The translations under genes and the position numbers were made by a program. The notes beneath the pieces are model-generated. The model saw nothing but the letters and a program-made list of their open reading frames with translations, searched no databases and was not told where the DNA came from. From Bradyrhizobium sp. CCBAU 051011 (GTDB taxonomy: Bacteria; Pseudomonadota; Alphaproteobacteria; Rhizobiales; Xanthobacteraceae), in the NCBI RefSeq assembly GCF_009930815.1, contig NZ_CP022222.1, positions 8,350,501-8,414,500 on the forward strand: 64,000 nt of DNA, given 5' to 3'. Below, piece by piece: positions 10,662 to 47,205 of the stretch; position 1 is the first letter of the stretch; each line of letters begins with the position of its first letter.

Positions 10662-11531
10662 ATGCCGGGGGCAATGCATCTTCGAATTTGGGACGTGGAG
10701 CACGGCGCCTGCGCAATGCTCCACCATACGCTGAACGGCGTTGCTGGCCGCTTGGCAATGATCGACAGCGGCGACACGCACGACTGGATGCCATCGGGGT
10801 TCATCACACAAACGCTCGGCCGAAACAGGCTGGACTATCTGTTCATTACGAACGCCGACCAGGACCACATGAGCGGCCTTCAGGGCCTGTGGGACGCCGG
10901 AATAGATGTGCCTGTCATGCATCACAATCCGACGTTCGGCGCCCAGGCGTTTGCGGCGGTCAAGCGCCAGAGCGGCCCGCTGACGCGCGACGCGCAACGC
11001 TACATGCAGAACTTGGGCACGTTTACGGCGCCGGTTGAATACCCGTTCGACAGCAGCATGGGCGGCATCACCGCCACGATGTTCTATAACCCGTGGCCGC
11101 TGTTCCAGAAGACGAACGATCTGAGTCTTGTCGTGTTCATCAAGTTCGGCCGGTTCGGCATCCTGTTTCCGGGCGACCTTGAAGGGCCTGGCTGGCGAAA
11201 CCAGCTGTCTAACGCCGCATTCCGCACGATGCTCGAGAGCGTTAATATCCTCGTGGCCTCACACCACGGCCGCGACAACGGGTACTGCGAAGATATCTTC
11301 GACTATTGCCGCCCCCAGGCCGTCGTAATGTCGGACAAGGCCATCGTGCATGACACACAGAACATGGTCCAAGCGTACCGCTATCAGGTGATGAAGCATC
11401 ACGCCAACGGAGTTTTTGTGCGCACCTCGGGGCGCAACAGGCACGTACTTACTACCCGCCGCGACGGCTGGATTCAGTTTGAAGTGGACGACCAAGGAAA
11501 CTTCGGCATCGAAACAGAGTACCAAGGATGA
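10662..11531 (+). CDS. MBL-fold metallohydrolase (ComEC-like soluble domain)
   Basis: A 289-residue metallo-beta-lactamase-fold protein of the ComEC/Rec2 hydrolase type. Visible motifs are HLRIWDVEHGACAML (first strands), IDSGDT, the metal motif TNADQDHMSGL (in place of the classical HxHxDH), an internal histidine cluster VMHHNP, FPGDLEGPGW (ligand Asp), and ASHHGRDNGY (distal His). ComEC-like domains are nucleases or nucleotide-processing enzymes; free-standing forms often sit beside membrane proteins. The stop overlaps the start of the next gene (ATGA), so the two are translated together. The gene is intact while the phage genes upstream are broken, suggesting separate selection. It could belong to a defence or toxin module; function is inferred. 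Confidence 0.75.
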   Translation: MPGAMHLRIWDVEHGACAMLHHTLNGVAGRLAMIDSGDTHDWMPSGFITQTLGRNRLDYLFITNADQDHMSGLQGLWDAGIDVPVMHHNPTFGAQAFAAVKRQSGPLTRDAQRYMQNLGTFTAPVEYPFDSSMGGITATMFYNPWPLFQKTNDLSLVVFIKFGRFGILFPGDLEGPGWRNQLSNAAFRTMLESVNILVASHHGRDNGYCEDIFDYCRPQAVVMSDKAIVHDTQNMVQAYRYQVMKHHANGVFVRTSGRNRHVLTTRRDGWIQFEVDDQGNFGIETEYQG

Positions 11532-12175
11532 AAAGCCGCTCCACGGTCCTGAAGGCCGCCAACATGAAATGGCTGGTGTCGCTGGCGGCATTCGACGCCG
11601 CCGTGGTGTTGCTGTTTGTGGCGCCGGGGTTGATAGACGCCAGCACGTTGGCGCTTCTGCGTGCAGGTTCAGCGACGGCCCTGCCGGTTCTTGTTTTGCT
11701 GTTCACGGGACTACTGTCGCACGATGCAAAGGCGCGGCTTGTCTTCTGGAAGATCGCCAACCCGCTTCCTGGCAGCGCCGCCTTTACGAAGCACGCGCCC
11801 GCCGACGCGCGGATCGACATGGCGGCGCTGGCAAAGAACGTGGGCGCGTTGCCGACCGACCCAGGCCAGCAGAACGCAATGTGGTACAAGCTGTACCGCC
11901 TAGTCGGCGATGACCCCGCAGTGTCCGAGGCCCACAAGCTGTACCTCATGTACCGCGACATGGCGGTGATGTCGCTGTCTATGGTTCCGCTGGCGCCCGC
12001 CGCGATTTGGTATGCCGGCGCACCAGCGGGCAGCCTATGGATTGCTAGCGGCTTGTTCGCGGTGCAGTACGTGATGTGCGCCGTTGCCGCCCGTCACAGT
12101 GGCACGCGTTTCGTGTGCAACGTGTTGGCCATCCATTCGACCACGAAGGTCAAGGCAAAGACAGCTGCACAGTGA
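11528..12175 (+). CDS. four-helix membrane protein coupled to the MBL hydrolase
   Basis: 215 residues with two N-terminal transmembrane helices (about 16-36 and 43-65), a soluble middle (DAKARLVFWKIANPLPGSAA, IDMAALAKNVGALPTDPGQQ, NAMWYKLYRLVGDDPAVSEA) and two C-terminal helices (about 146-166 and 168-190). The 2TM-soluble-2TM layout is seen in several putative pore-forming effectors (S-4TM type), but I see no direct motif proving this. It begins inside the last codons of the MBL gene by an ATGA overlap. A short basic tail (STTKVKAKTAAQ) ends the protein. Function unknown; a membrane partner or effector of the hydrolase is the best guess. Confidence 0.65.
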   Translation: MKSRSTVLKAANMKWLVSLAAFDAAVVLLFVAPGLIDASTLALLRAGSATALPVLVLLFTGLLSHDAKARLVFWKIANPLPGSAAFTKHAPADARIDMAALAKNVGALPTDPGQQNAMWYKLYRLVGDDPAVSEAHKLYLMYRDMAVMSLSMVPLAPAAIWYAGAPAGSLWIASGLFAVQYVMCAVAARHSGTRFVCNVLAIHSTTKVKAKTAAQ

Positions 12176-23194: not shown

Positions 23195-23211
23195 CTGGCA
23201 TATCGCTTGCT
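23195..23211 (+). promoter_or_regulatory. sigma-54 (RpoN) promoter of the peroxiredoxin gene
   Basis: CTGGCATATCGCTTGCT has GG and GC exactly 10 bases apart, as in -24/-12 promoters (consensus TGGCAC-N5-TTGCW). It ends 54 bases before the ATG at 23266. Confidence 0.75.
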
Positions 23212-23265: not shown

Positions 23266-23820
23266 ATGCTTGGAATTGGAAGCAAGTTGCCGTCGTTCGA
23301 AATCACAGGCGTGAAGCCCGGTTTTCATCTGCACGAGGAAAACGGGCAGAGCGCGTTCGAGACGCTGACGGAAAACAGCTTTCCTGGAAAATGGAAAGTC
23401 ATCTTCTTCTACCCCAAGGATTTCACCTTCGTCTGCCCAACCGAGATCGCGGAGTTTGCCCGGCTATCGAAGGATTTCGCCGAGCGCGATGCTGTGGTGC
23501 TAGGCGGTTCGACCGACAACGAGTTCTGCAAGCTCGCTTGGCGGCGCTCGCACAAGGACCTGCAACATCTGCCAATCTGGCAGTTTGCCGACACTAAGGG
23601 CGGGCTGGTCGATGGCCTCGATGTGCGTTCGCCCGACGGCGTCGCTTATCGCTACACATTCGTCGTCGACCCCGACAATACCATCCAGCACGTCTACGCG
23701 ACCAATCTAAATGTCGGCCGCAGCCCGAAGGACACGCTGCGCGTTCTGGACGCGCTACAGACCGACGAGCTCTGCGCCTGTAACCGCGAGATCGGCGGCG
23801 AAACCCTGAAAGTTGCTTGA
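23266..23820 (+). CDS. AhpC/Prx-type peroxiredoxin
   Basis: 184 residues. The thioredoxin-fold core is [20 protein letters not shown] with the peroxidatic Cys57; the second half ([40 protein letters not shown]) is the usual AhpC fold, and C170/C172 in DELCACN near the end are candidate resolving cysteines. The enzyme reduces hydrogen peroxide and organic peroxides. It is followed after seven bases by an AhpD-type partner, so the two make a complete reductase pair. The sigma-54 promoter places it under RpoN control, fitting protection of nitrogenase-containing cells. GAGG precedes the ATG. Confidence 0.9.
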
Positions 23821-23827
23821 GGCATCA

Positions 23828-24373
23828 ATGTCGATTGAACAGCTAAAGGACCAGATTCCCGATTTCGCCAAGGACGTGAGACTCAACTTGGCTTCGATCC
23901 TGTCGGATGAGACGCTATCACCGCAGAGCAAATACGGGCTGTTGCTCGCCACCGCGATTGCGGTCCGCAATCCCCTGGTGATCGCCGCAATGGAATCTGC
24001 GGCCGCCGTCGTGATAACGCCGGCCGCGGTCGCGGCGGCAAAATCCGCGGCCTCCATGATGGCGATGAACAACGTCTACTACCGCTTCGTTCACCTCGCC
24101 TCCAATCCGGAATACAAGACGATGCCGGCGCGGCTGCGCATGAACGTGATCGGCAATCCCGGCGTGGACAAAGCCGATTTCGAGCTGTGGTCGCTGGCGG
24201 TAAGCGCCATCAACGGCTGCGGCGCCTGCATGGACGCCCATGAGAAGGCGCTGCGGGAAGCCGGCGTCAGCTCGGCGGCCATCCAAACCGCGGTCCGCTT
24301 TGCCGCGATCGTGCAGTCGGTTGCGGTTGCGATCGAGGCGGCCGGCATGGGCGTGACCCAGGCGGTGGAGTGA
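23828..24373 (+). CDS. AhpD-like alkylhydroperoxidase
   Basis: 181 residues, all-helical carboxymuconolactone-decarboxylase fold. The active-site motif [19 protein letters not shown] (CxxC plus His four residues on) is complete. AhpD reduces oxidised AhpC. The ATG at 23828 has GAGG upstream; an in-frame alternative start at 23813 would overlap the ahpC end. Long Ala-rich helix [19 protein letters not shown] at about residues 58-76 is normal for the family. Confidence 0.9.
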
Positions 24374-24578: not shown

Positions 24579-26113
24579 TTAAGGAGCTCTGCAGCTTCGG
24601 TACTTTCGTCGGTATGCAGCTAAGAAGTCTTCGTCTGCGCAGATGCACCGTCCTGACGTATCTTTTGCCTTAGGATCGTGAAGATGCGACGCGAGTGGAC
24701 GAAGCAGGTTAATCCGTGTGCTTGTGGTCCGCAGGTTCAGAAGGCCGGAAGCGTGCTTCACGAGATGCGCCGCCAACATTATGCCAGCGAGAGCCGACTG
24801 AAACGACATCGGCACAACGGCTCTCACCGGCTGCGCTCCGTCCGTCAGGCGCATGACAATCCCTCCGCAGATTGCCCGCTGGTGAAAGCATCGGACGGAC
24901 TGGCCGACAAACTCTTTAAGGGCTTCGGACGGAATGTTGAACGCTTTGGCGACACGTTCGACGAAACCTACATCCACCGGCCTGTTCGTCTGAAGGAGAT
25001 CCCGGATCTCCTGTTGGGCCTCCGGCATCTTGAGCTCCTCAGCAATCTTCTCGTCTTCGTCTTTATTTTCCCGTGAGGCAAGTAAAGGCAGGCCAGACAT
25101 GCCCGGCCGTCATCAAAGCCATGGCGCGACACTCCGAGATCAAGCTCTTGTGTCCAGGCGTTTACGATCCATTTCGGCAACGCCCCCTGCGCGGCAATGC
25201 GGTCCGGAGCGTTGTCCAATGCGACAGCAACTCTTTCGAACATCCAATCGTTCCGGTCGCTCACATAGACGTCCCATTTGACACAATGAGCCGACACTTC
25301 CAGCGCCGTATCCACGAGCGCGGCACGCGCCAGATCCACTTTTGGTGAACCAACATCACATTGGCCGGCCAGCACGTAGCGCTGTAGATTCGAAAGGTCG
25401 ACCTCCTCATCGTCCACCAGACGAAGCGATCCTTTAATGCTCGCCGTGCGAGCCAAAGCCCAAATCGCGCCATTGCCGATCGCGCCGAGCCCGACGAGGT
25501 GAGTCTCGCCGATATCCGTTCCTTCCAAACCCGGACCGGAGTCAGGGGTACCCTGGGCGTAGGTCAGCATTGACAGGTCGATAAGCTCGTCCGCGTCGCC
25601 CTGCTCCAGCTGGTCGGCAAATACCGTCCGAAAGACGTTGGCTGCCGCGAAGCATGACGCAGCTCCCGCGCCAAACGGATTCATCGACTTGCCGGAACCA
25701 ACCAGACCGCGGCTCGAAAGTTTGGCTCTCCATCCCTCCGAGCCGATGAAGAAGGTCGGACACTTAATGCGCGACGGACTGCTTCCAACGACCACGGAAA
25801 CCGTGACGGCCTTCCTGGTTTTCGCGAGCTCGATCTCAGGATTGATGGACTTCGCCAGGAACTCCAGGATTGGAACATGATCCTTCGCCTTTGCATCAAG
25901 CGGCCGCAGCGCGATCGTCGGATAAAGGCGCGACAACAGCCTGATGATCATATCCAGGCTGGCTCTGCCTTCCCGCGACTGCACGGCTGCGCCGTCGAAA
26001 GACACTCCGATCACTTGCGCGGCAAGCCTGTCCTCGAACGCCGACATCTTGAAATTGGTCAGCGCCCGCGACGCTGCCGACGCCGCGCGGTCCATGAAGT
26101 TGGCCCTGGCCAT
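24579..26113 (-). pseudogene. E1-like ThiF-family activating enzyme, single frameshift
   Basis: Last gene of a ubiquitin-like operon. An unassigned N-terminal domain of about 200 residues is followed by the ThiF/Uba fold: ETHLVGLGAIGNGAIWALAR (GxGxxG), LRLVDDEEVDLSNLQRYVLA (Asp and the SNLxR motif), VAVALDNAPDRIAAQGALPK, and a Cys-rich loop GRACLACLYLP. At 25066-25069 (an A4 run on the coding strand) the frame is lost; one base more would join PHGK to NKDEDEKIAEELKMPEAQQE, continuing through AICGGIVMRLTD to a stop at 24579. The total would be about 510 residues. E1 enzymes adenylate the C-terminal Gly of the Ubl. Sequencing error, a real mutation or slippage are all possible. Confidence 0.8.
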
Positions 26114-26116
26114 CGT

Positions 26117-26605
26117 TCAATCCTTGATTAAAATCATCCGCGTAACCTGGCCAACCGACAAGGGGCGCCACACTCCAGCCCCGTCAAGCCGGTACGATGC
26201 GACGTTCCTGAGATCGAAGGGCACTCGCGCGAAGTCAGGCACGACCAAAGACAAGCACCCCACCGTCGTGGCGATCGCGTACTCGTCGTCCGTGCTGGAA
26301 TGATAGGCTCGGCCGGGATGACTGTGTATCTGGGCAATGAGCGCAAGCTTCTCCCGGTACAGCCATACATTTATGCGATGCAGCTCTTCAGGTCCTATTA
26401 CGACGCACACTCCATCGGCAGTACGTATGTGGCGCTGGGCAGGAATGAGCGTCCTATGTACCTGAAAATGGTGCCCCGTCTGACGGCCTACCCAAAGGCC
26501 GAGACCTTCATGCCCTTCACAACCCACCTTCCGCAAATGGGCATCGAGTTCATCTACGCAGCCGGGCGGCACCGAGAGGACCGTAACGTCCGCAATCTGA
26601 TTCAT
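26117..26605 (-). CDS. JAB/JAMM-family isopeptidase
   Basis: 162 residues. The metalloprotease motif is complete: Glu early (GHEGLGLWVGRQ), then IAQIHSHPGRAYHSSTDD (His-x-His and the Ser/Asp positions). Zn-dependent JAB proteins cleave ubiquitin-like proteins from targets or precursors. The ATG at 26605 overlaps the E2-like stop by four bases, and the gene ends three bases before the E1-like start. The upstream in-frame region that lengthens the frame to 26755 overlaps the E2-like gene and is not used. Confidence 0.85.
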   Translation of the reverse strand: MNQIADVTVLSVPPGCVDELDAHLRKVGCEGHEGLGLWVGRQTGHHFQVHRTLIPAQRHIRTADGVCVVIGPEELHRINVWLYREKLALIAQIHSHPGRAYHSSTDDEYAIATTVGCLSLVVPDFARVPFDLRNVASYRLDGAGVWRPLSVGQVTRMILIKD

Positions 26606-27219
26606 TCCGGTACGGCCAGTAATGAGGGCAGCACGTTCACCGCCGGGATCTGGACCTGCACCTGGTAATGCTCGATCGGCTTTACCCCGTGGTGCCAGAT
26701 CTTTTCGAGGATAAAAGCCAACGATCCTTCGCCAGAGCTTCGATGCAGCAGCCATGAATCACTCGTGTGAGCGGGATTGTTGTGGTATTCGAAAATGCCG
26801 GGAAGACAAATAAATGGCCGATCATCAGGGCTGTTGTACTGAATCATGTTTGTCATTTGCACCCCTCCCTGCTGGGCCAGCGCCAGAATGGTCTCGGGAG
26901 TTGCGCCGGGGATTGCCGCACGGCGAAGCATTTGCAGCTGGAGCAATTTGGCGGGTATCGGTTCGCGCATGAAAGGGTCCACGAACCTGACGGAGGGCGG
27001 CCGCAGATCGTAATTCGTAAAATTCAGCACGATGGCAGCGACGATCGGAGGCGGTCTCGGCTTAGTCGCCGCGAAAGCCACAAAGATCTCCGGAAACTCT
27101 GCGTCAAGCAGGATCCAGCCCCTCTTGCGATAGGCCGATTCCATGCTCCGATAGTTGGCAAGCTCCCGCTCGAACTTTACGCGCGAGACCTCGGGATCGA
27201 CAGTTTGGAGATCAGCCAC
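26602..27219 (-). CDS. E2-like protein with predicted metal-binding CEHH motif
   Basis: 205 residues, GTG start overlapping the end of the Ubl gene by eight bases. The first half (FERELANYRSMESAYRKRGW, VAAIVLNFTNYDLRPPSVRF, VDPFMREPI) resembles the UBC/E2 fold seen in bacterial ubiquitin-like operons; the second has FICLPGIFEYHNNPAHTSDS, a Cys-x5-Glu-x-His-x4-His pattern that I recall as a predicted metal-binding domain linked to these operons. The Cys here is the only obvious catalytic-type Cys. Whether it carries a thioester or binds metal cannot be decided from sequence. Confidence 0.75.
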   Translation of the reverse strand: MADLQTVDPEVSRVKFERELANYRSMESAYRKRGWILLDAEFPEIFVAFAATKPRPPPIVAAIVLNFTNYDLRPPSVRFVDPFMREPIPAKLLQLQMLRRAAIPGATPETILALAQQGGVQMTNMIQYNSPDDRPFICLPGIFEYHNNPAHTSDSWLLHRSSGEGSLAFILEKIWHHGVKPIEHYQVQVQIPAVNVLPSLLAVPE

Positions 27220-27502
27220 CGGCCACGCCAGCCTTGAGGCTCAGGAACAGCGTCACTTGCTTGCCAAATCCAAACTCGCCTAGCTTCTTGTCCGGATCCA
27301 ACAGCTCGCCCGCTTCGTTCTTGATCTCCCAATTTTCGGGCGGCTGAGCCAGGTTATTGGTCTCCTCCAGCGCCTTTTGGCGGGCCACATGCAGCGGCTG
27401 CTGCTCTATGGCCTTAATGACGACAGGCTGACCGTTCACGACCATCGTGATTTCGACGAAATCCGCGCCGTGATCACTTCCCGGCTTCTTCTCATTCTTC
27501 AT
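27212..27502 (-). CDS. ubiquitin-like protein ending in Gly-Gly (DUF2604-like)
   Basis: 96 residues. A beta-grasp pattern is visible: FVEITMVVNGQPVVIKAIEQ (strands 1-2), PLHVARQKALEETNN (helix), NWEIKNEAGELLDPDKKLGE, and a final strand VTLFLSLKAGVAGG. The C-terminus is exactly Gly-Gly, so it needs no processing to be activated. ATG at 27502 with AGGA upstream; the open frame extends to 28006 but lacks a better start and overlaps other remnants. It is the first gene of an overlapping four-gene operon with E2-like, JAB and E1-like partners. Protein targets are unknown. Confidence 0.85.
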   Translation of the reverse strand: MKNEKKPGSDHGADFVEITMVVNGQPVVIKAIEQQPLHVARQKALEETNNLAQPPENWEIKNEAGELLDPDKKLGEFGFGKQVTLFLSLKAGVAGG

Positions 27503-28839: not shown

Positions 28840-29598
28840 TCAAAAGATATACTCGGGAGCCAGCCATTTGTGTGGGACGCCGGTCGTCAGACCGCCATCG
28901 ATAACGATCTCGGAACCGGTAAGATAACTGGACTCGTCGCTGAGCAGGAACAAGACTGCCTGCGACACTTCCTGCGGCCGGCCGGCCCGTCCCAGTGGAA
29001 TGGGGAAAATGGAGGGATCGAAGCTCACGGTCATCGGCGTGGTGATGAAGCCGGGATGGATCGAGTTGACGCGGACGCCCGAGGCCGCGGCCTCCAGAGC
29101 AGCAGACTTGGTTATGCCTCGCACGCCGAACTTGGAAGCGACATAGGCATGAAGCCCGGCAGTGCCCCGGAGCCCCTCGACGGACGAGACATTAACGATC
29201 GAACCTCCGCCTACGCGCCGGATTGCCGGCAGAGCCGCCTGCATTCCAAGGAACGCTCCGGTCAAATTGACTGCGATAATCTTGTTCCACTGATCAAGCG
29301 GGAACTGCTCGATCGGGGCCGTGCTGGCGATGCCAGCATTGTTAACCAGCCCATGCAGCGCGCCGAAGCTGCTCTCAGCGGTCGCGACCGCCCTAGCCCA
29401 CTCCTCCGGCTGGGTGACGTCCTGAGGTACATAGATGGCGGAAGCGCCCAGTTCAGCCGCGAGAGCCTCTCCTTGTGTATGAAGAATATCAGTGATTACG
29501 ACCTTGGCGCCTTCAGCTACAAGCAGGCGCGCATGAGCTGCACCCATCCCACGAGCTCCGCCGGTCACCAGAATGACCTTTTCGTTCACACGTCCCAT
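28840..29598 (-). CDS. short-chain dehydrogenase/reductase
   Basis: 252-residue classical SDR. NAD(P)-binding TGGARGMG (residues 11-18), an Asp after beta-strand 2 (VVITDIL) that favours NAD over NADP, NNAG, catalytic Ser in VNVSSVEG, YVASK (Tyr and Lys), and PGFITTPM. The closest types I can name are the 3-alpha/20-beta-hydroxysteroid and related dehydrogenases; substrate is not predictable. It lies alone between remnants, downstream of fix genes on the same strand but separated by about 700 bases. Confidence 0.85.
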   Translation of the reverse strand: MGRVNEKVILVTGGARGMGAAHARLLVAEGAKVVITDILHTQGEALAAELGASAIYVPQDVTQPEEWARAVATAESSFGALHGLVNNAGIASTAPIEQFPLDQWNKIIAVNLTGAFLGMQAALPAIRRVGGGSIVNVSSVEGLRGTAGLHAYVASKFGVRGITKSAALEAAASGVRVNSIHPGFITTPMTVSFDPSIFPIPLGRAGRPQEVSQAVLFLLSDESSYLTGSEIVIDGGLTTGVPHKWLAPEYIF

Positions 29599-30310
29599 GA
29601 CATGTTCCTTGCTTCGCTCCGTCGATCAGTGGCTGCGCAGCGGGGCGATCAGCTCGAGCCCATCTTTCTCGCTTAGACCGGACAACCTTGACGATCTCGC
29701 CGCCCGAAACCAGGCGCGCCCTGTCATGCCAGAAGAACTCCTGATGGTGCTCCATCAGTTCGTCCTTCGCCGACTTGGCCGGACGCCTGCTAGGGAAATG
29801 GGGGTTAGCAGTTCGTAGGTGCAAGTGGATCTTCCTCGAACATGTGCCTCGCCGCGCATGACCTAGCCATCCTTCAGCATGGGCATGGCTGCTGTCACCA
29901 AACGGCTCCCTCTTCTCAAAGGAACGACATTCTCGCCCAATATTTCCGCGCCTCGTTGATGAGATTGGCTGCTGCCGCCTACAGGCGCCGGCTCCCACCA
30001 AACCGGCGTTCGCGGAGCCGCCTGCCGCGTTTGGATCAGGCTTTGACGAGCGAGAGCAACGCACATGAGGTTCTCCGGCGTGCAGCGGCGGGAAGATCCA
30101 GATCTTCTAATCGGTGCGCCAATGATGGCGCGCGCAGAAACACTAGGAGAATCTGATTGCGAGGCAAAGCTCCCGCGACCGTTCCGTGCGCCGGGCGCAT
30201 CACCAGCTACCGCCATTGATAAGGCTCTCCGCACAAGAAGGGCGCGGAGACATGGATTTGCCGTGAGATGCCTTAGCAACGGCGTTCACGCTGAGCCTGC
30301 TGTGCAGTTC
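29599..30310. other. probable degenerate sequence, no gene recognised
   Basis: About 710 bases. The minus-strand frame MEHHQEFFWHDRARLVSGGE (near 29660-29760) could be the end of an unknown gene, but I cannot name it and no intact gene is supported. No RNA gene seen. Confidence 0.35.
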
Positions 30311-30607
30311 TCATCCGAACTTGAACAACACACCGTATCCGCCACGCGGATAGCTCCATTCGATGTCGCCGGTGGGCTCGCCGATGACGCGGCAGGTGCC
30401 GCACTCGATGCAGCCGTCGACGGTGACCTCGACTTGCCCCTTATCGTTGAGCTCATAGCAGCGCGCCGGGCAGACCTTTAAAAGCGCAAGCAACTGCGGG
30501 GATGGCTTCGTGTGTGCGCGCACTTTGACGTGAGGACGACCGACGTCGACAAGATAGCGGTTATAGAACAGCTTGTCCTCGACGCGCACTGATGTCTCGA
30601 CATTCAT
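30311..30607 (-). CDS. fixX: ferredoxin-like protein FixX
   Basis: 98 residues. [18 protein letters not shown] and [15 protein letters not shown] provide the Cys motif (Cx3C ... CxxCxxC) for a 4Fe-4S cluster. FixX hands electrons between the FixAB flavoprotein/FixC branch and nitrogenase or its reductase. It follows fixC by 32 bases with AAGGAAG before the ATG. Length and N-terminus ([20 protein letters not shown]) match the usual family. Confidence 0.92.
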
Positions 30608-30639
30608 ATTTCAGCTTCCTTGACTTCGATTTGGGCTGG

Positions 30640-31947
30640 TTAGCGCCATGCACGGGCGAGGCGGAATGCATCGCCAAATAGACCGGTCCAGGACCGCGCG
30701 TTGACAAAAGATTTCATTGTCACCTTCTCTTTCTCAGCCTTCGGCGTACCGTCGACGCGTACATAGTTCTGCATCGCCTTCGAGACGAGCTGCGGATAGG
30801 TAAGAAAGAAGTTTTGCGAGTTGGTATGCATCAGCATCGGCATATCCTTGTGCTTCTTCAGATCCTTAATCACGAAAGAGTCATCCAGCATCTTCTTGTA
30901 GACTGACAGATTTGCCGCGGTCATGGGTTGGCAGTGCGATTTCACCTGGACAATCGCTTCCGCCGCGATGCGGCCCGAAGTCATCGCGAGGTTAGAGCCC
31001 TCGCGATGAATGGCATTGTTGAGCTGCGCCGCATCGCCCACCACCACCCAGCCGTCGCCATAGAGCTGCGGGATCGCCTTGTAGCCGCCTTCAGGAATGA
31101 GGTGGGCGGAATATTCCTTGACCTCCGAGCCCTCGATCAGGGGCGCCACGGATGGGTGACGCTTGAAACAGTCGAGCAGCCCATATGGCGTCTCTCCGGT
31201 GCGCTGAAAGTCGGCGACGATACAGCCGATGCCGATCGAGATGCACTCTTTATTGGCATAGATGAAGCCCATTCCGGTCATGCCACGGGAAATGGTGCCG
31301 GCCGCTTCGACAACGACGCCTTCGTCACCCTTGAGATTGAAGTGGGCCTCGATGGTCTCACGCGGCAAAAAGTGCATTTCCTTAACCGCGAGTGCTACCT
31401 TGTCGGGCTTGGGCCGCTCGCGCAGGCGCGCACGCGTACCGAGAAGGCCGTTCACGCCTTCGCCCAGCACCACGACATCTGCTTGGATTTCGCCGTCGGA
31501 GCGATCCGTATGAACACCGATGACTTTCCCATTGGCGTCCCGCGCGAGCTCAGTGACGGTGGTCTCGCACAACACGGTCGCGCCGGCCTCGCGCACTTTC
31601 GAGGAGAACCATTTATCGAACTGCGCGCGGATGATCGTATACCGGTTCGGCCGCTCCTCGTTGAAGTCTTCGGAGCGGTAGTGCACACCGAAATGGGAGC
31701 GATCGTCCATTATCCAGAACCGTTGCTCGACGAGATGACGTTCGAGCGGCGCGTCATCGCGGAAGTCCGGGATGAGCTTTTCGAGCATGTCGGCATAGAG
31801 GATTGCGCCTTGAACATTCTTCGATCCGGCATATTCACCGCGCTCGAGCTGCAGCACCTTCATGCCGCGTTTAGCCATCGTTAGCGCCGCCGCGTTGCCC
31901 GACATGCCGGCGCCGACCACGATTGCATCGAACTTCTCCTCGATCAC
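30640..31947 (-). CDS. fixC: flavoprotein-quinone oxidoreductase FixC
   Basis: 435 residues from a GTG at 31945-31947 that sits 5 bases after a strong AGGAGG; the longer frame to 32001 overlaps fixB and is rejected. FAD-binding [20 protein letters not shown] (GxGxxG), then [14 protein letters not shown], the second FAD motif [20 protein letters not shown], and [14 protein letters not shown]. Family role: electron-bifurcating or ETF-quinone-type electron transfer toward nitrogenase. Intact, ten bases after fixB. Its electron donor FixA is broken here. Confidence 0.92.
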
Positions 31948-31957
31948 AACAACCTCC

Positions 31958-33067
31958 TTAGCTCGCGATACGGTCGCGCGAATGCGGTGAAAGCCGTGCA
32001 CGAAATGCGGCCGTCAGCGCCGGTAACAAGTGCATAGCGTCGTTGACGACGCCGATATGGGCAAAGTCAAAGATTGGCGCGTTCTTATCGGTATTGATGG
32101 CGACGATCAGATCGGCGCCCTCCACGCCGACCCGATGCTGGATCGCGCCAGAAATGCCCGCGGCTATATAGAGCTTTGGCCGGATGGTCTTGCCCGTCTG
32201 GCCGATCTGCCGGTCGGAGGTGACCCAGCCCTTTTGTACCAGCGGACGCGAACAGCCATATTCGGCGCCGAGGACGGTGGCGAGCTGTCGTACCAGCTGG
32301 AAACTCTCCGGCGAGCCCAACCCCAGCCCGCCGGCGACGACGACGTCGGCATACGCGAGATTGGATTTGGCCGAATCACGGTCCGGCAGAAAGGATAGCA
32401 CTTTGGTGACGATGTCTTCTTCGAGCAGGCGGAGCGGATGGACGACAATGCGGGCGGCATCGCGCGCGACACGCTCTGGCATCGGCATCACGCGCGGGCG
32501 GACGGTTGCCATCTGCGGCCGGTAATTCAACGTGTAGATCGTGCAAAGCAGCGATCCGCCAAAGGTCGGACGCGTGGCGGCAAGCGAACCATCCGCGTCA
32601 ACGTCGAGCTCAGTGCAGTCCGCAGTGAGACCCGTAAGTAGTGTAGTGGCTACCGATCCTGCAAGATCGCGACCCAGCGTGGTGGCGCCCAACAGGAGGA
32701 TCTCTGGCTTGTAGGTGTTGACGAGATCGGTCAGCGCCTTCGTGTAGGACTCGTTTCGATACTCCGACAGCACATGCTCGCTCACAAGATAGGCTAGGTC
32801 GGCCCCGTAGCAGAAGGATTCGAGCGCAGCATTGCGCGTGGTTGCGGCCTCCGGGCCGATGACGACCGCGGCGAGATCAACCTTCAGCTTGTCGGCAAGC
32901 CTGCGGCCTGCGCCCATGAGTTCCCAGGAGACGGGATGCACCTGGCCGCGCTCCTGCTCGACGAAGACCCAGACGTGCTTGTAGGCCTTAAAGTGCTCGG
33001 GCAATTCTTTTTTGATTCCTGCGCGGCCGGCCGCGGCAGGCGTGGGAGCCTTGGTGACGTTGCTCAT
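31958..33067 (-). CDS. fixB: electron transfer flavoprotein alpha-type subunit FixB
   Basis: 369 residues. [20 protein letters not shown] at the start, then [20 protein letters not shown] and, in the FAD domain, [40 protein letters not shown] and [20 protein letters not shown], all characteristic of ETF alpha. It pairs with FixA (ETF beta). ATG at 33067, 15 bases after the fixA stop. Intact. Confidence 0.92.
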
Positions 33068-33082
33068 AGCTTTGAATTCCCC

Positions 33083-33615
33083 TCAGAACCTGCGCGCCTG
33101 CGCCACAAGATCGGTCTCTAGGTTGGGTTGGCCCTTCAAGATAGCTTTCATCAGCACCTCCATCGGCTGCTTGGGGGGCTTCCACCAGCCCCGCCTTCTC
33201 GGCACGTGGCGCCGGCGCAAAGGCCCGCTTGACGACCCGCGAGCCGAGCGCGACGCATTTCGACACTCTTCGACGTCGGCCTCCTGCGCGCTCCATTTTA
33301 CAATCGGCCCCAGCGCCGCCCGCAGGGCGGCGGTCATCACGGACGGCAAATCTGGCTCGTTGCCTGCGCCATGGTTGACCAGCGGATTTGTGCGCAATAT
33401 CTGCACGCCGGGTCCGGCGCGGCGCTCCGCGTCGACCGTGGTGAGCGCGGTGATCTCGCTGCCGAACTTGTCACGCAATTGGAGCGCGGCCTCGAGCGCG
33501 AACAAGTATCGGTTGATGATGCTCGGCCGCCATGACGCACCATGGTGTTGGTCACGGGATTGACGCGGATCTGCGCGGAATCGGGAACCTGCTTGGTGCA
33601 AACGATACTGTGCAT
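33083..33615 (-). pseudogene. fixA: electron transfer flavoprotein beta-type subunit FixA, broken
   Basis: Starts MHSIVCTKQVPDSAQIRVNP, the normal FixA N-terminus, at ATG 33613-33615 with GGAGAAGG upstream. Near 33535 the frame shifts; the next frame gives LFALEAALQLRDKFGSEITA. Then the text jumps to DAERRAGPGVQILR, so about 90-100 codons of the middle (including the dinucleotide-binding part) are deleted around 33430. More changes follow, but VKWSAQEADVEE and a C-terminal LKGQPNLETDLVAQARR remain. Expected full length about 280. Not functional, although the promoter upstream is well kept. Confidence 0.85.
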
Positions 33616-33856
33616 GCCTTCTCCAGAGTAGCGTGGAACGCGAGTTACCATTGGCGGCCGTCTCCGGGTCAATCCCAGCCTCAATGGCGGCGTCAGAGGC
33701 AACTGCGAACGGCATTACGCTAGCGTGAGCCATAAGATGATCCCGGCGCGAGCGGCGAGCAGTGACGGCACAACATTTTTGGTTTTTCTCCAAATCTCAT
33801 CTCCGACGGCAACAAAACTGTGTAGTCGGCGCCAATGACGGACTTGGCCGGAGAAC

Positions 33857-33873
33857 AGCAAGTGTCGTACCAG
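33857..33873 (-). promoter_or_regulatory. sigma-54 promoter of the fixABCX operon
   Basis: Minus strand CTGGTACGACACTTGCT: GG and GC are 10 bases apart. It lies about 240 bases upstream of the fixA ATG and downstream of nifW. Confidence 0.7.
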
Positions 33874-33966
33874 TTGGGGACATCAAAAATCAGCCGTCCA
33901 TTCAACAACTTAAGAAAGTTGACAAAGACTGGGCGTTAGCATCGCCGATCCTACAATTCCGACATA

Positions 33967-33982
33967 AGTCGCGAATGCGACA
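33967..33982. promoter_or_regulatory. degenerate NifA upstream site of fixA
   Basis: AGT-N10-ACA, one base from the TGT-N10-ACA consensus, with the same inner CGC-N4-GCG symmetry as the exact site before nifV. It is about 95 bases upstream of the sigma-54 promoter. Confidence 0.45.
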
Positions 33983-34089
33983 GCGCCGCTTCGCTTCATT
34001 GCTGTACAGAGTTGATCTGGATGAAGAGGAATATGGCACAACGCGCTGCACCGACATGGCTTGGGGGCAGATCTGAACCATGTGTGAGG

Positions 34090-34431
34090 CTATTTCAGCG
34101 AGCTCAACGGCACGAATGCCGCCGGTTTCTTGGGCTCGGCGACCGCATCCTTCAAGACCTTGAACACCCGCTGGTCGATCGGCGAGGACGCCACGAAGTC
34201 GGCATAAGCCTGCTCCAGCACCGCCTTGCACCGCGCCGTTACCTCGGCCTCCGCGCTATCTTCGAATACTTCCTTGGCGAGATATTGTCCCATGCGCTTT
34301 AAGATATGCAGGCGCGCGACATTGACAATCTTCGGGTCGTAATCGACGTCAAGCAGCGCAAAAAAGTCTTCAGCCGAGGAGGCTTTGTTGAGTCGATCCA
34401 GGATGCCGACTGCCGCCTGCATGTTGCTCAT
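34090..34431 (-). CDS. nifW: nitrogenase-stabilising protein NifW
   Basis: 113 residues. LNKASSAEDFFALLDVDYDP and VNVARLHILKRMGQYLAKEV are the diagnostic NifW text. NifW associates with the MoFe protein and helps its maturation or protects it from oxygen. ATG at 34431 with AAGGAG upstream; an internal Met at 34422 is possible. It lies about 200 bases downstream of nifV on the same strand and probably shares its transcript. Intact. Confidence 0.92.
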   Translation of the reverse strand: MSNMQAAVGILDRLNKASSAEDFFALLDVDYDPKIVNVARLHILKRMGQYLAKEVFEDSAEAEVTARCKAVLEQAYADFVASSPIDQRVFKVLKDAVAEPKKPAAFVPLSSLK

Positions 34432-34631
34432 CGAGATATCTCCTTTGGGTTAGATCGCCGGCCTGTGGTCGGGACCCGACGCCGGCTGGTCATCTCCTTG
34501 CGACGCTGCTTCGCGCAGGCGGCGCTGCATATGGCCTCCAGACCTATGTCGTCGTGGATCAGCGAGGAACCTCCGTGGCACGCCGGCGGTTTCGAAGTGA
34601 TCGGCTGTAATAATGCCGGACCATGGCCGCC

Positions 34632-35819
34632 TCACGCTCCATTGATCAACAAGCGCTCGCAGACGTCGCGCCAGATCGCCACCACCGTCTCGCACGCGAC
34701 CGGTCGCTTGTGCTCGATGGCATGTTTCCGCACCCGCAACAGGATCTGTCTTGCCTCTTCGGCGCTGGCGGTGAGCTGCAATTCGTCGAGCAACGTGGTG
34801 ATCGACGACAGCCCGGAATGCTTGCCGATCACAATACGGTTGGAGCGACCAAGCAAGCGGGGGTCGAGCGACTGATACGTGCGTTGATCTTTCATTAAGC
34901 CATGGACATGAATGCCGGATTCGTGGGTGAACACATGCTCACCCACGATCGCCTTGTTCAGAGGAATCGTGCGTGCAGCCGCGGCTGCCACAACGGCCGC
35001 GACGTTCTGCAGCTCCGGCAGCACGATGCCGGTGTCGCGCCCGTAGAGCTGTTTGAGAGCGACCGCGACTTCTTCCAGCGGTGCATTGCCCGCCCGCTCG
35101 CCGAGACCGATGACAGTCACCGAGGCATGGCTCGCGCCGCCCTTGATGGCGGCGAGCGTATTGGCGGTCGCGAGCCCGAGATCGTCATGGCCGTGAAATT
35201 CGAGCTCAAGATCGGTGGTCGAACGCAAACGAGCGATCAGCGCAAAGGTGGAGTCGGGATCAAGCACGCTGAGCGTATCGGCAATGCGAAAGCGCCGTGC
35301 GCCCGCGGCTTTTGCGGTGGCGATCAGCGTGGTGAGAAAATCGACATCTGCGCGGGAGGAGTCCTCGCCGCCGACGGCAACCTCAACCCCCCGCTCGCGG
35401 GCATAACTTACCACCCGTCTCACTTGCTCCAGCGCCAGCTCGCGGTCACCGCCAAGCTTGGCTCCAATCTGCACGTCAGAGGCTGGGATGGAGACATTGA
35501 CCATCGACACCTTGGCCTCGATTGCCGCATCGACGTCGACTTCACGCATCCGGCACCAGCCAATGCTGGTGACCGGGAGACCGATCTCGACCACGGCTCG
35601 GATAGCCGCGATTTCCTCACTGCCCATGGCAGGCGTACCTACTTCGATCTCGGTGACACCGGCGCGCGCCAGCGCCTGCGCGATCGTCACCTTTTCGTCG
35701 GTGGTGAAGGCAACACCAGGAGCCTGTTCGCCGTCGCGCAGCGTCGTGTCGTTGAGTACGATCGGACCTGCCCATGACGTCTTGGACCATGACGGTTTGG
35801 CAGAGGCGACGGCGATCAT
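34632..35819 (-). CDS. nifV: homocitrate synthase NifV
   Basis: 395 residues. [20 protein letters not shown] (catalytic Arg-Asp and metal Asp), [20 protein letters not shown] (metal-binding His-x-His), and [14 protein letters not shown] identify the isopropylmalate/homocitrate synthase family; position between nifW and nifQ makes NifV the choice over LeuA. It condenses acetyl-CoA and 2-oxoglutarate into homocitrate for the FeMo cofactor. ATG at 35819 has AGGAG; the frame extends upstream to 35888 without a ribosome site. A sigma-54 promoter ends 34 bases upstream and a NifA site lies beyond. Many legume symbionts lack nifV and depend on the host; its presence implies possible free-living fixation. 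Confidence 0.9.
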
Positions 35820-35853
35820 GGAAGGCTCCTTGTTCCTGGCAAAGCAAGACTTG

Positions 35854-35870
35854 AGCAACCCGCATGCCAG
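35854..35870 (-). promoter_or_regulatory. sigma-54 promoter of nifV
   Basis: Minus strand CTGGCATGCGGGTTGCT: GG-N10-GC spacing exact, close to consensus. It ends 34 bases before the nifV ATG. Confidence 0.8.
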
Positions 35871-35926
35871 GCCGGCGCTCGGCCCCAAGCTATTGGACTA
35901 GCTAGCAGTTTTCGGCACATTCGGAT

Positions 35927-35942
35927 TGTCGCAAACGCGACA
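35927..35942. promoter_or_regulatory. NifA upstream activator site of nifV
   Basis: Exact TGT-N10-ACA (inner CGCAAACGCG), 56 bases upstream of the -24 element of nifV. Confidence 0.75.
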
Positions 35943-35992
35943 GCATCGCAAACTCAAGGCGTCGGCTTAACCTCACCATACGGTGGATGCCA

Positions 35993-36505
35993 TCAACTCC
36001 GCTTGCGGCGCAGATGGATGATCAGATCGCCGCAGGAGACTTCGTGACCGCGCAGCGGCTCCGGCACATTCACAAGCAGGAGATCCGCATTGGGGACATC
36101 GAGCAGCGTATCCTCGCCATGTAGATAATAATGCGGATGCGGTGTGGTGTTGGTGTCGTATAATGCACGCGAACCATCAAGGCAGAACCGGCGCAAGAGG
36201 CCGGCTTGCGTGAACTTGTTCAAAGTGTTGTAGACGGTAGACCATGGGACCGGAAAGCCGGTCTCGCGCGCCTCGGCAAATAGCATCTCTGCGCTGACAT
36301 GCCGGGCGCCCCTGGCAAACAACAGCTCGCTTAGCATCAGGCGCTGGCGCGGTCGCAGCCCGGCCTTGAGTAACACATTCTTCCAGCCGCCAACGGCGGG
36401 AGATTGCCCGCTGAGTTGGACGGAGGCCGGTTCTACCTGCACCTCCTCGAGGCTCGCACGATCCTCGGCGTCGCTGGTCGGAAGTCTGGCCAACGGCCGA
36501 TCCAT
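35993..36505 (-). CDS. Fur-family regulator, Irr-like
   Basis: 170 residues from the ATG at 36505; the longer frame (to 36667) overlaps nifQ. The Fur fold is clear: RPRQRLMLSELLFARGARHV, SAEMLFAEARETGFPVPWST, VYNTLNKFTQAGLLRRF (DNA-binding helix), then PHPHYYLHGEDTLLDV, where Irr proteins carry their His-rich haem/metal site. Irr represses or activates iron and haem genes in Rhizobiales. The gene starts ten bases after nifQ, so it is probably in the nifH-nifQ transcript, linking iron status with nitrogen fixation. No strong ribosome site. Probably a second, island-borne copy besides the housekeeping irr. Confidence 0.8.
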   Translation of the reverse strand: MDRPLARLPTSDAEDRASLEEVQVEPASVQLSGQSPAVGGWKNVLLKAGLRPRQRLMLSELLFARGARHVSAEMLFAEARETGFPVPWSTVYNTLNKFTQAGLLRRFCLDGSRALYDTNTTPHPHYYLHGEDTLLDVPNADLLLVNVPEPLRGHEVSCGDLIIHLRRKRS

Positions 36506-36515
36506 CCGATGTCGC

Positions 36516-37232
36516 TCACATCGGCCAGGCGCCGGCGGCGACCGGGACAGCCGCCTGCAGCAGAACGTCGCGTCGACGCTCGGCCATCCGGCTCTCGCCG
36601 CTTTCATCGCCAAAGCAAAGGTTGAAGTCGTTGCATTGCGTGCACACCGGTGTCGTACACATGACAAGGCCGTCGTCCTCGCACAGCGTGCGATAGAAGA
36701 AGCGCTTCCAGCGCATATTATTGGTATTGCGCGCGGCCAGTGGCGCGAAATGGCGGCCTAGGAGCCTGGATAGTTCGCCACGACCGCGCAATCCGAGGTC
36801 TTCCCACATGTGATTTGGCTCGATTGCGCGACGCGCGATCATCGCAGCTAGCCAGTTGCCGATGTCCCCTTCGGTCGAGCGTTGTGCGAGCAGGAGATCA
36901 CGCAACATTGCCGCCTCGTCGATCTCATTGCGCTTGACACCCAAGGGCAACTCCTCGCGGTTTATCCGGATCGACGGGAAGTATTGCTCCAGCACCGCGG
37001 CCAGCTCGTGGCTGGACAGACCGACCTTCTCTGAAACCAGACCACCATCCATCGTGGCGGCCGCCAGAATGGACGCCAGCACGTGACGATCGAAATTGCT
37101 GTCACTGGCTATATCGGCATCTGCGGGGTCCGCCCCAGTGAGCAGGCGGTATGTCGCAATTCCCCTATGCTGCTCATCGTTCGCTTCAGTCGCTCTGGCG
37201 GCCCTAAGCGGAAAGAACTGGGCTTCAAACAT
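36516..37232 (-). CDS. nifQ: molybdenum-processing protein NifQ
   Basis: 238 residues. C-terminal CTTPVCTQCNDFNLCFG provides the Cx4CxxCx5C cluster motif typical of NifQ; HMWEDLGLRGRGELSRLLGR and NTNNMRWKRFFYRTLCE are further family marks. NifQ delivers molybdenum for FeMo-cofactor assembly, which fits the mod genes in this window. It is downstream of nifH, separated by a hairpin, and probably co-transcribed. Intact. Confidence 0.9.
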   Translation of the reverse strand: MFEAQFFPLRAARATEANDEQHRGIATYRLLTGADPADADIASDSNFDRHVLASILAAATMDGGLVSEKVGLSSHELAAVLEQYFPSIRINREELPLGVKRNEIDEAAMLRDLLLAQRSTEGDIGNWLAAMIARRAIEPNHMWEDLGLRGRGELSRLLGRHFAPLAARNTNNMRWKRFFYRTLCEDDGLVMCTTPVCTQCNDFNLCFGDESGESRMAERRRDVLLQAAVPVAAGAWPM

Positions 37233-37262
37233 GAATTGCCGACCTTTTCACAGTGATCAAGT

Positions 37263-37286
37263 ATGTCGTGATGCTGGTCACGACAT
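37263..37286. other. hairpin between nifH and nifQ
   Basis: ATGTCGTGA-TGCTGG-TCACGACAT, a perfect 9-bp stem with a 6-base loop. No U-run follows in the nifHQ transcript direction, so it may be an RNA processing or stabilising hairpin instead of a terminator. Confidence 0.5.
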
Positions 37287-37350
37287 CTTTCGCCGGAGCG
37301 CCGACCTCCTAATCAGCATTGGGAAGGCCGGCCTCTCTCGGTCTGGCCTA

Positions 37351-38376
<1,026 letters not shown>

Positions 38377-41364: not shown

Positions 41365-42957
41365 TCAGGCGGCGTGGTTCCATGGCATAAGCGCGTCGAT
41401 TTCGCTGCTCGGCCAGCCGTTGGCGATACGCTGAAGCGTGAGGGTGAGCCAGGCGAACGGATCGACGTTGTTCATCTTCGCTGTCTGCAGCAGCGTTGCG
41501 ATGGTCGCCCAGGTTCGCCCGCCGCCGTCGCTGCCAGCGAAGAGGCTATTCTTTCTCGTAATTGTTTGTGGCCTGATGGCGCGTTCGACGATGTTGGAGT
41601 CGAGCTCGATGCGACCATCGGTCAGGAAGCGCTCGAAGATGGCACGGCGCGAGACGGCATAGCGGATCGCCTCGGCCAGTTTTGATTTGCCGGAGATCCG
41701 CCGCAAGCTCTGCTGCCAGAGGTCGAAGAGATCTGCGACGACCGCTGCGGAGGCTTGCTGGCGCGCGGCAACGCGTGCGTCGGGGCTTTGACCGCGCACG
41801 GTCTTCTCGACCTGCCAGAGCTTTGCCATCCGCTCGACCGTCGTCGTTGCCACTCTCGAGCTTCCTGCAACATGCAGCTCGTAGAACTTGCGTCTGCTGT
41901 GTGACCAGCAGCCAGCCAAGGTGATGCCATCATTGCCGCGATCGGGTCGCGCCAACTTGTTATAGGCGGCATAGCCATCCACCTGCAGGATGCCGCGATA
42001 ACCATTGAGATGCCGGACCGCGCATTCGCCGGAGCGGCTGTCTTCGAAGCGATAAGCCACCATCGGGGGACCGCTGCGGCCAAAGGTTCGGTCATCTCTG
42101 GCATAGGCCCATAAGTAGGCCGTCTTCGCCGATCCGGAGCCCGGAGCGAGTGTCGGCAAGGTGGTTTCGTCGGCAAAGACCCGTTCGGCCTTCTTGACCT
42201 CGCTGAAGATGTAGTCGGCTACGATCTCCAGCTCGAAGCCGAGCTTGCCCATCCATTGCGCCATCAGCTGGCGGTCGAGCCCGACCTTGTCGCGGGCGTA
42301 GATGGCCTCCTGCCGGTAGAGCGGCTGGCCATCGGCATATTTGGAGACGGCGATCTGGGCCAGAAGCGCTTCCGTCGGAATGCCTCCTTCAATGATATGG
42401 GCCGGGGCCGGCGCCTGGATTACGCCGTCCGCGTTCTTGAAGGCATACTTGGGACGGCGCGTGACGATCACACGGAACTTCGCTGGCACCACATCCAGGC
42501 GCTCCGACACGTCCTCGCCGATCAGCACCTTCTGCTTGCCGGCATGCTTAGCCAGCTCTTCCGGCTCAATGACGGTTTCGATCCGTTCCAGATGGGGTGC
42601 AAAGCCCTTGCGCCGGCGCGGTGCACGCTTGCCTTCCGCTTGCTCACGGCCCTTGCTGACCTGGGCCTTGATCGCGGCGATGCCGGTCTCGATCTCCTCG
42701 AAGACAAAGGCCCGCTGTTCATCGTCGCCGTTCACAGAGCCGAGCTTTTCCGATCGTCGGCCGAACCGGGCGCGGTCGAAGGCCTTCAGGATCTGCGTCA
42801 GCCGCTCGATGCGCGCATCGGCATCGGCGTTGCGCGCCCTGAGATCGGCGACTTCGCTCTCCAGAGCATCGGCGCGGGCCGCCTTCTCGGCCATGGCAAG
42901 CACCATGGCTTTCAACATCTCTACGTCATTCGGGAGGTTGAGATCGGGCGGCGTCAT
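41365..42957 (-). CDS. IS66 transposase TnpC, copy A
   Basis: 530 residues with an N-terminal leucine-zipper-like coil, ARFGRRSEKLGSVNGDDEQR, DDE region (VFADETTLPTLAPGSGSAKT, GILQVDGYAAYNKLA, LDSNIVERAIRPQTITRKNS). Intact. An antisense open frame of 251 residues over its start is a shadow. Confidence 0.92.
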   Translation of the reverse strand: MTPPDLNLPNDVEMLKAMVLAMAEKAARADALESEVADLRARNADADARIERLTQILKAFDRARFGRRSEKLGSVNGDDEQRAFVFEEIETGIAAIKAQVSKGREQAEGKRAPRRRKGFAPHLERIETVIEPEELAKHAGKQKVLIGEDVSERLDVVPAKFRVIVTRRPKYAFKNADGVIQAPAPAHIIEGGIPTEALLAQIAVSKYADGQPLYRQEAIYARDKVGLDRQLMAQWMGKLGFELEIVADYIFSEVKKAERVFADETTLPTLAPGSGSAKTAYLWAYARDDRTFGRSGPPMVAYRFEDSRSGECAVRHLNGYRGILQVDGYAAYNKLARPDRGNDGITLAGCWSHSRRKFYELHVAGSSRVATTTVERMAKLWQVEKTVRGQSPDARVAARQQASAAVVADLFDLWQQSLRRISGKSKLAEAIRYAVSRRAIFERFLTDGRIELDSNIVERAIRPQTITRKNSLFAGSDGGGRTWATIATLLQTAKMNNVDPFAWLTLTLQRIANGWPSSEIDALMPWNHAA

Positions 42958-46631: not shown

Positions 46632-47205
46632 TTTCGTTTCTCTATCGTTAGTTGTTCGAGAGTTGTGCAATGGGCGGACAGTTCTACGTCCGCTCAAGCG
46701 AGAAAAGCATCTCCTGGCATGCTTGCGTTAGGGTGGGGATCGGGATTTCACCGCCTGGGAGATGAAAGCTACTCGCGTTAAAGGCGACAACTCAAACCAG
46801 CGCGTGAAGGCGCAGATCGCGTTCATAACAGGTCAGTATAGGAAGTTCGTAAACCTCCAATCCTTGTTGTAACCGTTGCCCGCAATCGCGTCACAGCTCG
46901 CTCAGCGGTTCTCACCGGAGCGGCCCGAGCAACCTCCTTAACTGCCTCAGAGCTTCGATCCGGGTCCATTCGCGGTAGAACGGGCTCGCACCAAGCACAA
47001 CATCTACCATTGCTAAAGTAGAGCATTGAGAGCGCCGAGACGGTGGCGACAACGTGAGGCTAAGAGCTGAGACATTCGTAGTCGTTGGAAAGCTTTGCAA
47101 GTCGAGGACCATTCCCGCCTATTGAGATCGTACAACGTAACGCTACGTGCGATTCAACCCCCTCCGTGGCTCGTCGCATGAATGTGTCCAACTGTCGGTT
47201 TCCAC
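46632..47205. other. no gene recognised
   Basis: About 570 bases between the halogenase and the IS3-type element. Minus-strand frame with MVDVVLGASPFYREWTRIEA near 47010 may be a remnant, but I do not recognise it. Confidence 0.35.

Follow-up and report, generated by a model that had tools for sequence, protein, structure and literature searches.

We analysed a stretch of 64,000 nt from Bradyrhizobium sp. CCBAU 051011 (contig NZ_CP022222.1, positions 8,350,501 to 8,414,500 of the forward strand; referred to as the window, with coordinates given along it unless otherwise stated), in which a locus of four minus-strand genes, in the order A-B-C-D, lies within 24579-27502. Comparison of the predicted proteins identifies this locus as BilABCD, encoding a ubiquitin-like modifier (Ubl), a CEHH-type E2, a JAMM protease and an E1. 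Bil, a relative of ISG15 conjugation, has been studied for its part in phage defence. We find it likely that this is a conjugation locus of the Bil defence type, situated on a Bradyrhizobium symbiosis island and inactive in this strain through a cut BilD. It is an ordinary and probably damaged further member of an already known system; its distribution along with nod and nif DNA may be the new part.

Identity of the operon

The bilA gene (27212..27502, minus strand like the other three) encodes a 96-aa ubiquitin-like modifier of the DUF2604 family (PF10790; Pfam match at 3.2e-33), which ends in AGVAG-G with Gly95 as the conserved glycine. The bilB gene (26602..27219) has a GTG start and encodes a 205-aa E2 of the Metal_CEHH family (PF14455; 4.5e-105) with the catalytic cysteine at Cys138, and this family has a single copy in the source genome. 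A 162-aa JAMM isopeptidase is encoded by bilC (26117..26605; Prok-JAB, 2.2e-07). The first frame of bilD (24968..26113) gives 381 aa with a Prok-E2_C domain (3.4e-42) and a ThiF adenylation core (1e-13), and a detached 3' part in another frame (24579..25100) is homologous to residues 351-510 of intact relatives. A preliminary description of the locus, made by a model from the letters alone, had placed the four genes as overlapping or 3 bases apart, and we measured overlaps of 8 bases (bilA/bilB) and 4 bases (bilB/bilC) and a gap of 3 bases (bilC/bilD). It had also pointed to other Bradyrhizobium for the same gene order, which does recur in relatives, hence the cluster is not a chance arrangement.

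All four proteins match chains of solved Bil structures. BilA matched the Ubl(BilA) chain 8tyx_A at 2.7e-34 and BilB the E2(BilB) chain 8tyz_C at 5.8e-68, both over nearly full length, and BilC matched the DUB(BilC) chain 8tyx_B at 1.5e-65; for the E1 we used the BilD of the intact relative L032 (B. australiense), which matched the E1(BilD) chain 8tyz_A at 9.8e-197. Along with the Pfam results, these matches confirm the earlier reading of a Bil-type conjugation operon (Ubl-E2-JAB-E1). They also answer by homology the question of whether BilA would have a beta-grasp fold and BilB an E2 fold, both of which are predicted. The Ubl, E2, JAMM and E1 genes are adjacent in this order, with the E1 gene spread over two frames; BilA is a predicted beta-grasp Ubl with a conserved terminal glycine, and the first frame of bilD is a BilD homologue with inactive and active adenylation parts.

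The solved structures (E1-E2-Ubl, 8tyz and 8tz0; DUB-Ubl, 8tyx and 8tyy) are from the Bil system of Ensifer aridi, a tie which we made for the E2 only, through the E2(BilB) P0102. This protein is 55% identical to the window BilB and has the same active-site residues, and all four proteins of the two systems are homologous over nearly full length. The window locus differs in its frameshifted bilD and in belonging to a clade (G000, which is the window genome, G065 and G091) without Arg143 of BilB. Since all four proteins match the solved chains, the E1 through its intact relative, the CEHH/DUF2604 type is a structurally studied type, and we discard the suggestion that the operon may differ from studied types. 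The class was described already in 2006 by Iyer, Burroughs and Aravind as operon type 6c, for which the prototype is the NGR234 megaplasmid (PMC1779556), and pNGR234a carries a homologous operon. The 2006 account of the type likewise has a multidomain E2+E1 protein, a JAB protein and a 'predicted metal binding protein'; it differs in naming, where the type is described, no Ubl but just a second uncharacterised conserved protein (PMC1779556). The latter is presumably the DUF2604 gene, now BilA.

Two other assignments were considered. A type II CBASS locus (cyclic oligonucleotide-based antiphage signalling, with Cap2 and Cap3) is disfavoured by matches to its E1-E2 models at 1e-5, compared with 4e-15 for the PADLOC model of BilD; the near neighbours are Prx (peroxiredoxin), AhpD, a short-chain dehydrogenase/reductase (SDR) and Fix genes, and no model of the CD-NTase (cGAS/DncV-like nucleotidyltransferase) was run over the whole window. 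The ThiF domain could also belong to a sulfur-carrier or cofactor pathway of the ThiS/MoaD-ThiF/MoeB kind, and NCBIfam MoeB models do match the E1 at 6.3e-11. However, this match lies far under the curated cut-off (42 of 266 bits), and the operon also encodes an E2 and a JAMM protease, both matching Bil chains, so that we regard such a pathway as hardly credible.

Within the same genus there are also Bil-like operons with a short E2 (L094, and L061 on pBb1S5b), in which E2, JAB and ThiF genes follow in the same order. The L094 E2 retains the C, H and H of the CEHH motif, but is 145 aa long, is about 26% identical to the window BilB and lacks most of the variable segment before Cys138.

Conserved residues and a variable E2 segment

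The complete JAMM motif seen earlier in BilC (E33, H94, H96, S103 and D106) proved invariant across 37 aligned rows, and E33 is the residue mutated in structure 8tyx. Similarly, the CEHH motif noted in the E2-like protein corresponds to C138, E144, H146 and H151 of BilB, at the published positions; C138, H146 and H151 are kept in 37 of 37 rows and E144 in 35. According to the treatment of the E2 in a review (PMC11354881), the CEHH residues belong to the E2 active site, with Cys138 and His151 catalytic, and on this account along with the residue invariance we rejected a metal-binding role for them. The same review gives Cys417 as the catalytic cysteine of the studied BilD. By alignment its counterpart is Cys416 of L032, invariant wherever the E1 is unbroken (31 rows); in the window the equivalent cysteine, together with a CxC pair, is found in the detached 3' part of bilD.

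BilA had been described as ending exactly in Gly-Gly. The window protein does end so, but it is Gly95 that is present in 35 of 35 rows, and the residue after it varies (glycine in 15 rows, alanine in 8 and valine in 5; in 6 rows the protein stops at Gly95, and 1 row has a longer tail). Because of this difference in conservation, the predicted reactive end of BilA is most likely Gly95, once BilC has removed the residues that follow; processing of BilA by BilC is described in the review, in its part on this enzyme (PMC11354881).

Of 37 rows, 34 have Arg143 in BilB; the three in which it is replaced are G000, G065 and G091, a clade in which D147 is likewise replaced. BilB is most variable at residues ~91-130 and in its tail, and with the tail excluded residues 86-135 show less similarity than the remainder of the protein in 256 of 300 Bradyrhizobium pairs. 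The BilB of L042/G080 is a mosaic: residues 1-85 match its own clade at 93-99%, and residues 86-135 match best those of G185 (74%) and G208b (68%), compared with 46-50% for its own clade. We speculate that residues 86-135 may be a segment that selects the target.

The broken bilD gene

The window bilD carries a one-base frame change near 25,062, at codon 351 (25055..25070, one base shorter than in intact relatives), so that residues 1-351 and 351-510 are read in two frames. Thus, of the ThiF-type E1 previously proposed for this gene, the Prok-E2_C and ThiF domains running from 26113 stand, and the single intact gene across 24579-26113 does not, as the frame ends at 24968. The last ~30 aa of the first frame are out of frame and the catalytic cysteine is excluded, i.e. 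it is not in frame with the adenylation domain. As BilD is cut before this cysteine, conjugation is probably lost and the bil system, judged from its reading frames, is probably inactive in this strain.

In 13 named Bradyrhizobium relatives the E1 frame reads through the break point, giving an intact length of 511-518 aa in 12 of them; in the thirteenth, L031, it enters a stretch of N at the end. The matched stretches were free of frameshifts and stops in 22 of the 25 strong copies from Bradyrhizobium (the end of the E1 being N in G065), and the broken ones are those of the window genome (bilD), G091 (bilA) and G190 (bilA and bilD). As the break is unique to the window copy among the 25, we rejected programmed frameshifting.

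Some observations weigh against the reading of an inactive, defence-type Bil locus. The Bil models of PADLOC matched BilC (1.1e-15) and BilD, with a weak match for BilB (1.6e-4) and none for BilA, which makes the window locus a more distant branch with respect to the Bil of that library. The fixed place of bil beside fix genes, described below, is unusual for a defence system. Further, the broken copies are all in single-contig assemblies (3 of 8, versus 0 of 17 elsewhere, p = 0.024), and the BilD tail past the break differs from L031 by 3 nonsynonymous and 9 synonymous changes. Hence the tail is still constrained, and together with the restriction of breaks to single-contig assemblies this makes a recent break, or an assembly error with the system intact in the organism, possible. 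We give an assembly error a substantial chance, yet lean towards a true break. The frames of ModB, ModC, Prx, AhpD, BilC, BilB, SDR, FixC, FixB and NifV are continuous relative to relatives (other listed open reading frames (ORFs) of the window do change frame and were taken as spurious). BilB R143 and D147 are replaced throughout the clade, including the multi-contig G065, and G091 carries a different break, in BilA, which fits decay.

Distribution and association with nod and nif genes

Metal_CEHH was detected in 31 of 265 Bradyrhizobium genomes, 24 of them strong, and in 59 of 146 genomes (56 strong) of a second genus of the same order, as well as in 4 of 398 genomes across the phylum and 5 of 397 across the order (source genome included). 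Among 72,556 plasmids in PLSDB, 13 matched the window BilB, all in rhizobial genera and one weakly; it should be noted that this query biases the plasmid search towards close relatives. Plasmid and genome counts overlap, as some plasmids are near-copies of each other or come from genomes already counted: the nodC coordinates of contigs G1026:C3 and G1126:C5 equal those of two Mesorhizobium plasmids, which suggests that the second genus is Mesorhizobium. A phage-borne origin was rejected, as a search of 50,697 phage records with BilB gave no match at E 1e-5.

The nodC gene was over the cut-off in 135 of 265 Bradyrhizobium genomes and 101 of 146 of the second genus, and was commoner in strong carriers than in other genomes. 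In Bradyrhizobium 22 of 24 strong carriers were nodC-positive versus 113 of 241 others (p = 1.8e-5), and in the second genus 54 of 56 versus 47 of 90 (p = 2.4e-9). The Fisher tests treat genomes as independent, which the carriers are not, each island or plasmid being transferred as a whole. The strong counts omit genomes with weak PF14455 matches, 7 in Bradyrhizobium (4 nodC-positive) and 3 in the second genus (all nodC-positive); with these included the figures become 26/31 versus 109/234 and 57/59 versus 44/87. Among the carriers, G084, G185, G318 and G1098 lack nodC.

The nifH gene was over the cut-off in all 24 strong Bradyrhizobium carriers, a rate measured in carriers only. It shares a contig with bil in 14 of these, at a distance of at most 12 kb in 9 and of 39-564 kb in 5. 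Likewise nodC shares a contig with bil in 7 of the 22 nodC-positive carriers in Bradyrhizobium, at distances of 158-574 kb. In the second genus this holds for 21 of 57, the distance being 17-450 kb in 20 and 807 kb in one; their position on different contigs in the remaining carriers is uninformative either way. Both nifH and nodC were found on 8 of the 12 plasmids with a close homologue, and neither was over the cut-off on the remaining four, which are Rhizobium p42a-type plasmids. Among the matches listed from the literature on rhizobia or symbiosis islands and ubiquitin, judged by titles and opening lines of abstracts, we found no report of Bil in rhizobia; primary Bil papers lay outside this search. 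As a separate observation, G1070 and G1071 of the second genus have a second bil copy ~16 kb from broken nodC pieces, like the leftover of an old symbiosis island.

In the window, a convergent prx-ahpD pair (23266..24373, plus strand) follows bil, and upstream on the same strand as bil lie SDR, fixX, fixC, fixB, nifV and nifH (28840..38376), SDR and nifH being identified by family search and the fix and nifV genes named by us from reading their proteins. With these nif/fix genes alongside and nifH 10.7 kb away, the nif surroundings given in the preliminary description are borne out. In 11 of the 13 named Bradyrhizobium loci bil is followed by the convergent ahpD-prx pair, and in 6 it has nifV-fixB-fixC-fixX upstream; L036 and L043 have no nifV or fix genes in ~9-10 kb upstream of bil, and the remaining five lie on contigs that end too soon upstream to judge.

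We searched the window for sigma-54-like sites. Sites with zero mismatch were found at 23196 (before prx), 33857 (in the nifV/fixB interval), 35854 (before nifV) and 38398 (before nifH), and none before bilA; with one mismatch allowed there were 13 matches in the window against 5.8 expected. In the alignment of the bilA upstream region (20 of 25 copies), which we inspected by eye, a large part of the close clade has a TGGCAT half-site with the second half absent. As no full site is found upstream, we rejected NifA/sigma-54 control of bilA. The plus-strand match at 23196-23211, directly before the peroxiredoxin gene, suggests a putative membership of prx-ahpD in the nitrogen-fixation regulon.

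Selection and recombination

The ratio of nonsynonymous to synonymous substitution rates (dN/dS), computed by our own counting script from pairs with dS > 0.02, was 0.29 for BilA, 0.30 for BilB, 0.15 for BilC and 0.17 for BilD (12 taxa). For comparison it was 0.08-0.09 for fixB, fixC and fixX (7 taxa), and 0.03 for prx, 0.21 for ahpD and 0.36 for modC (10 taxa). These bil values, along with the unbroken frames of 22 of 25 copies, argue against bil as a neutral passenger of the island with no selected function; in its favour are the 3 broken copies of 25 and the loss of the conserved R143 in one clade. Altogether we consider a neutral passenger quite improbable.

Between the window and L031, dS was 0.086 for bilD and 0.052 for bilC, and 0-0.024 for bilA, bilB and flanking genes, the higher divergence of bilD pointing to recombination. 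In an E1 tree of 31 rows, in which some forks are weak and long branches were flagged, separate branches were seen for a main Bradyrhizobium group, a Sinorhizobium/Mesorhizobium group, the p42a copy and the pair G198/G221.

Proposed function

Because of the kinship with Bil, phage defence is by analogy most likely the role of the operon. In intact copies BilC would remove the residues after Gly95 of BilA, and BilD would adenylate BilA and then hold it as a thioester on Cys416 (L032 numbering). BilB would receive BilA on Cys138 and join it to a target; there is no E3-like gene in the operon. BilC would reverse the attachment. The target would most likely be a structural protein of a phage, in line with published work on another Bil, and the operon would then protect the carrier of the island. 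Where PMC12948488 summarises published Bil work, it is as tagging the central tail fibre of the phage.

The conjugation might instead serve the symbiosis itself, acting on bacteroid proteins, competition or host compatibility, and for that reason ride with nod and nif. The nodC association in two genera speaks for this, along with nifH in every strong Bradyrhizobium carrier and close by in 9 of 14 shared contigs, the 8 of 12 plasmids with both genes, and the ahpD-prx and fixX neighbours. However, an association alone is no proof of function where islands and plasmids move as units, and bilA has no sigma-54-like site while prx, nifV and nifH have one. There are carriers without nodC, both the genomes named above and the four p42a-type plasmids, and next to bil on p42a stand TIR and caspase genes, a setting like that of defence loci. 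Further, the dN/dS of bil is ~2-4 times that of fixB, fixC and fixX. We thus find a symbiotic function unlikely, and of the nodule-related role suggested at the outset the genomic association with nod/nif holds, a role in the nodule itself being unsupported beyond it.

Beyond the preferred reading of a defence-type locus silenced in this strain, we tentatively raise a wider one, to which we give a somewhat better chance than to a purely symbiotic function though still a low one. In several genera of rhizobia, CEHH-type Bil could be a standard element of symbiosis islands and symbiosis plasmids that has been maintained for long, with a symbiosis-tied task and a swappable E2 segment (~86-135) selecting the targets; the task could be to protect the nodulating population or to modify proteins relevant to symbiosis. 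If this structurally studied type of Bil lives mainly with mobile nod/nif DNA, rhizobia would be the natural place to seek Bil targets, and strains with and without bil would be directly comparable. The link of bil to nod/nif DNA is the part worth following.

Other features of the window and of related loci

Between nifV and fixB an ORF at 33083-33793 (minus strand) resembles, by eye, a scrambled fixA remnant. At 10662-12175 (plus strand) a protein of metallo-beta-lactamase fold matches the PADLOC candidate family PDC-M48B at 3.4e-47; its gene overlaps that of a hydrophobic, membrane-like protein without a Pfam match, and the two may form a defence pair. Three apparently identical 530-aa transposase ORFs, which we take to be IS66-like, are found at 41365-42957 (minus strand), 50811-52403 and 59032-60624 (both plus strand), and a tryptophan-halogenase family protein (45009-46697, minus strand; 2.1e-135) lies near transposase-like ORFs.

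In related loci, given here in their own coordinates, TIR-domain and caspase-family genes lie just downstream of bil on R. etli p42a (L057, 18371-19729), and also on pRSpK102f. Plasmid MesoLj131c2 carries a second Ubl system ~8 kb from bil, with a multiubiquitin-domain gene and a ThiF gene (L058, 4731-6797). On three Sinorhizobium plasmids (L055, L056 and L059, 13717-14394) a VapC-type toxin gene and its StbC-type partner adjoin bil.

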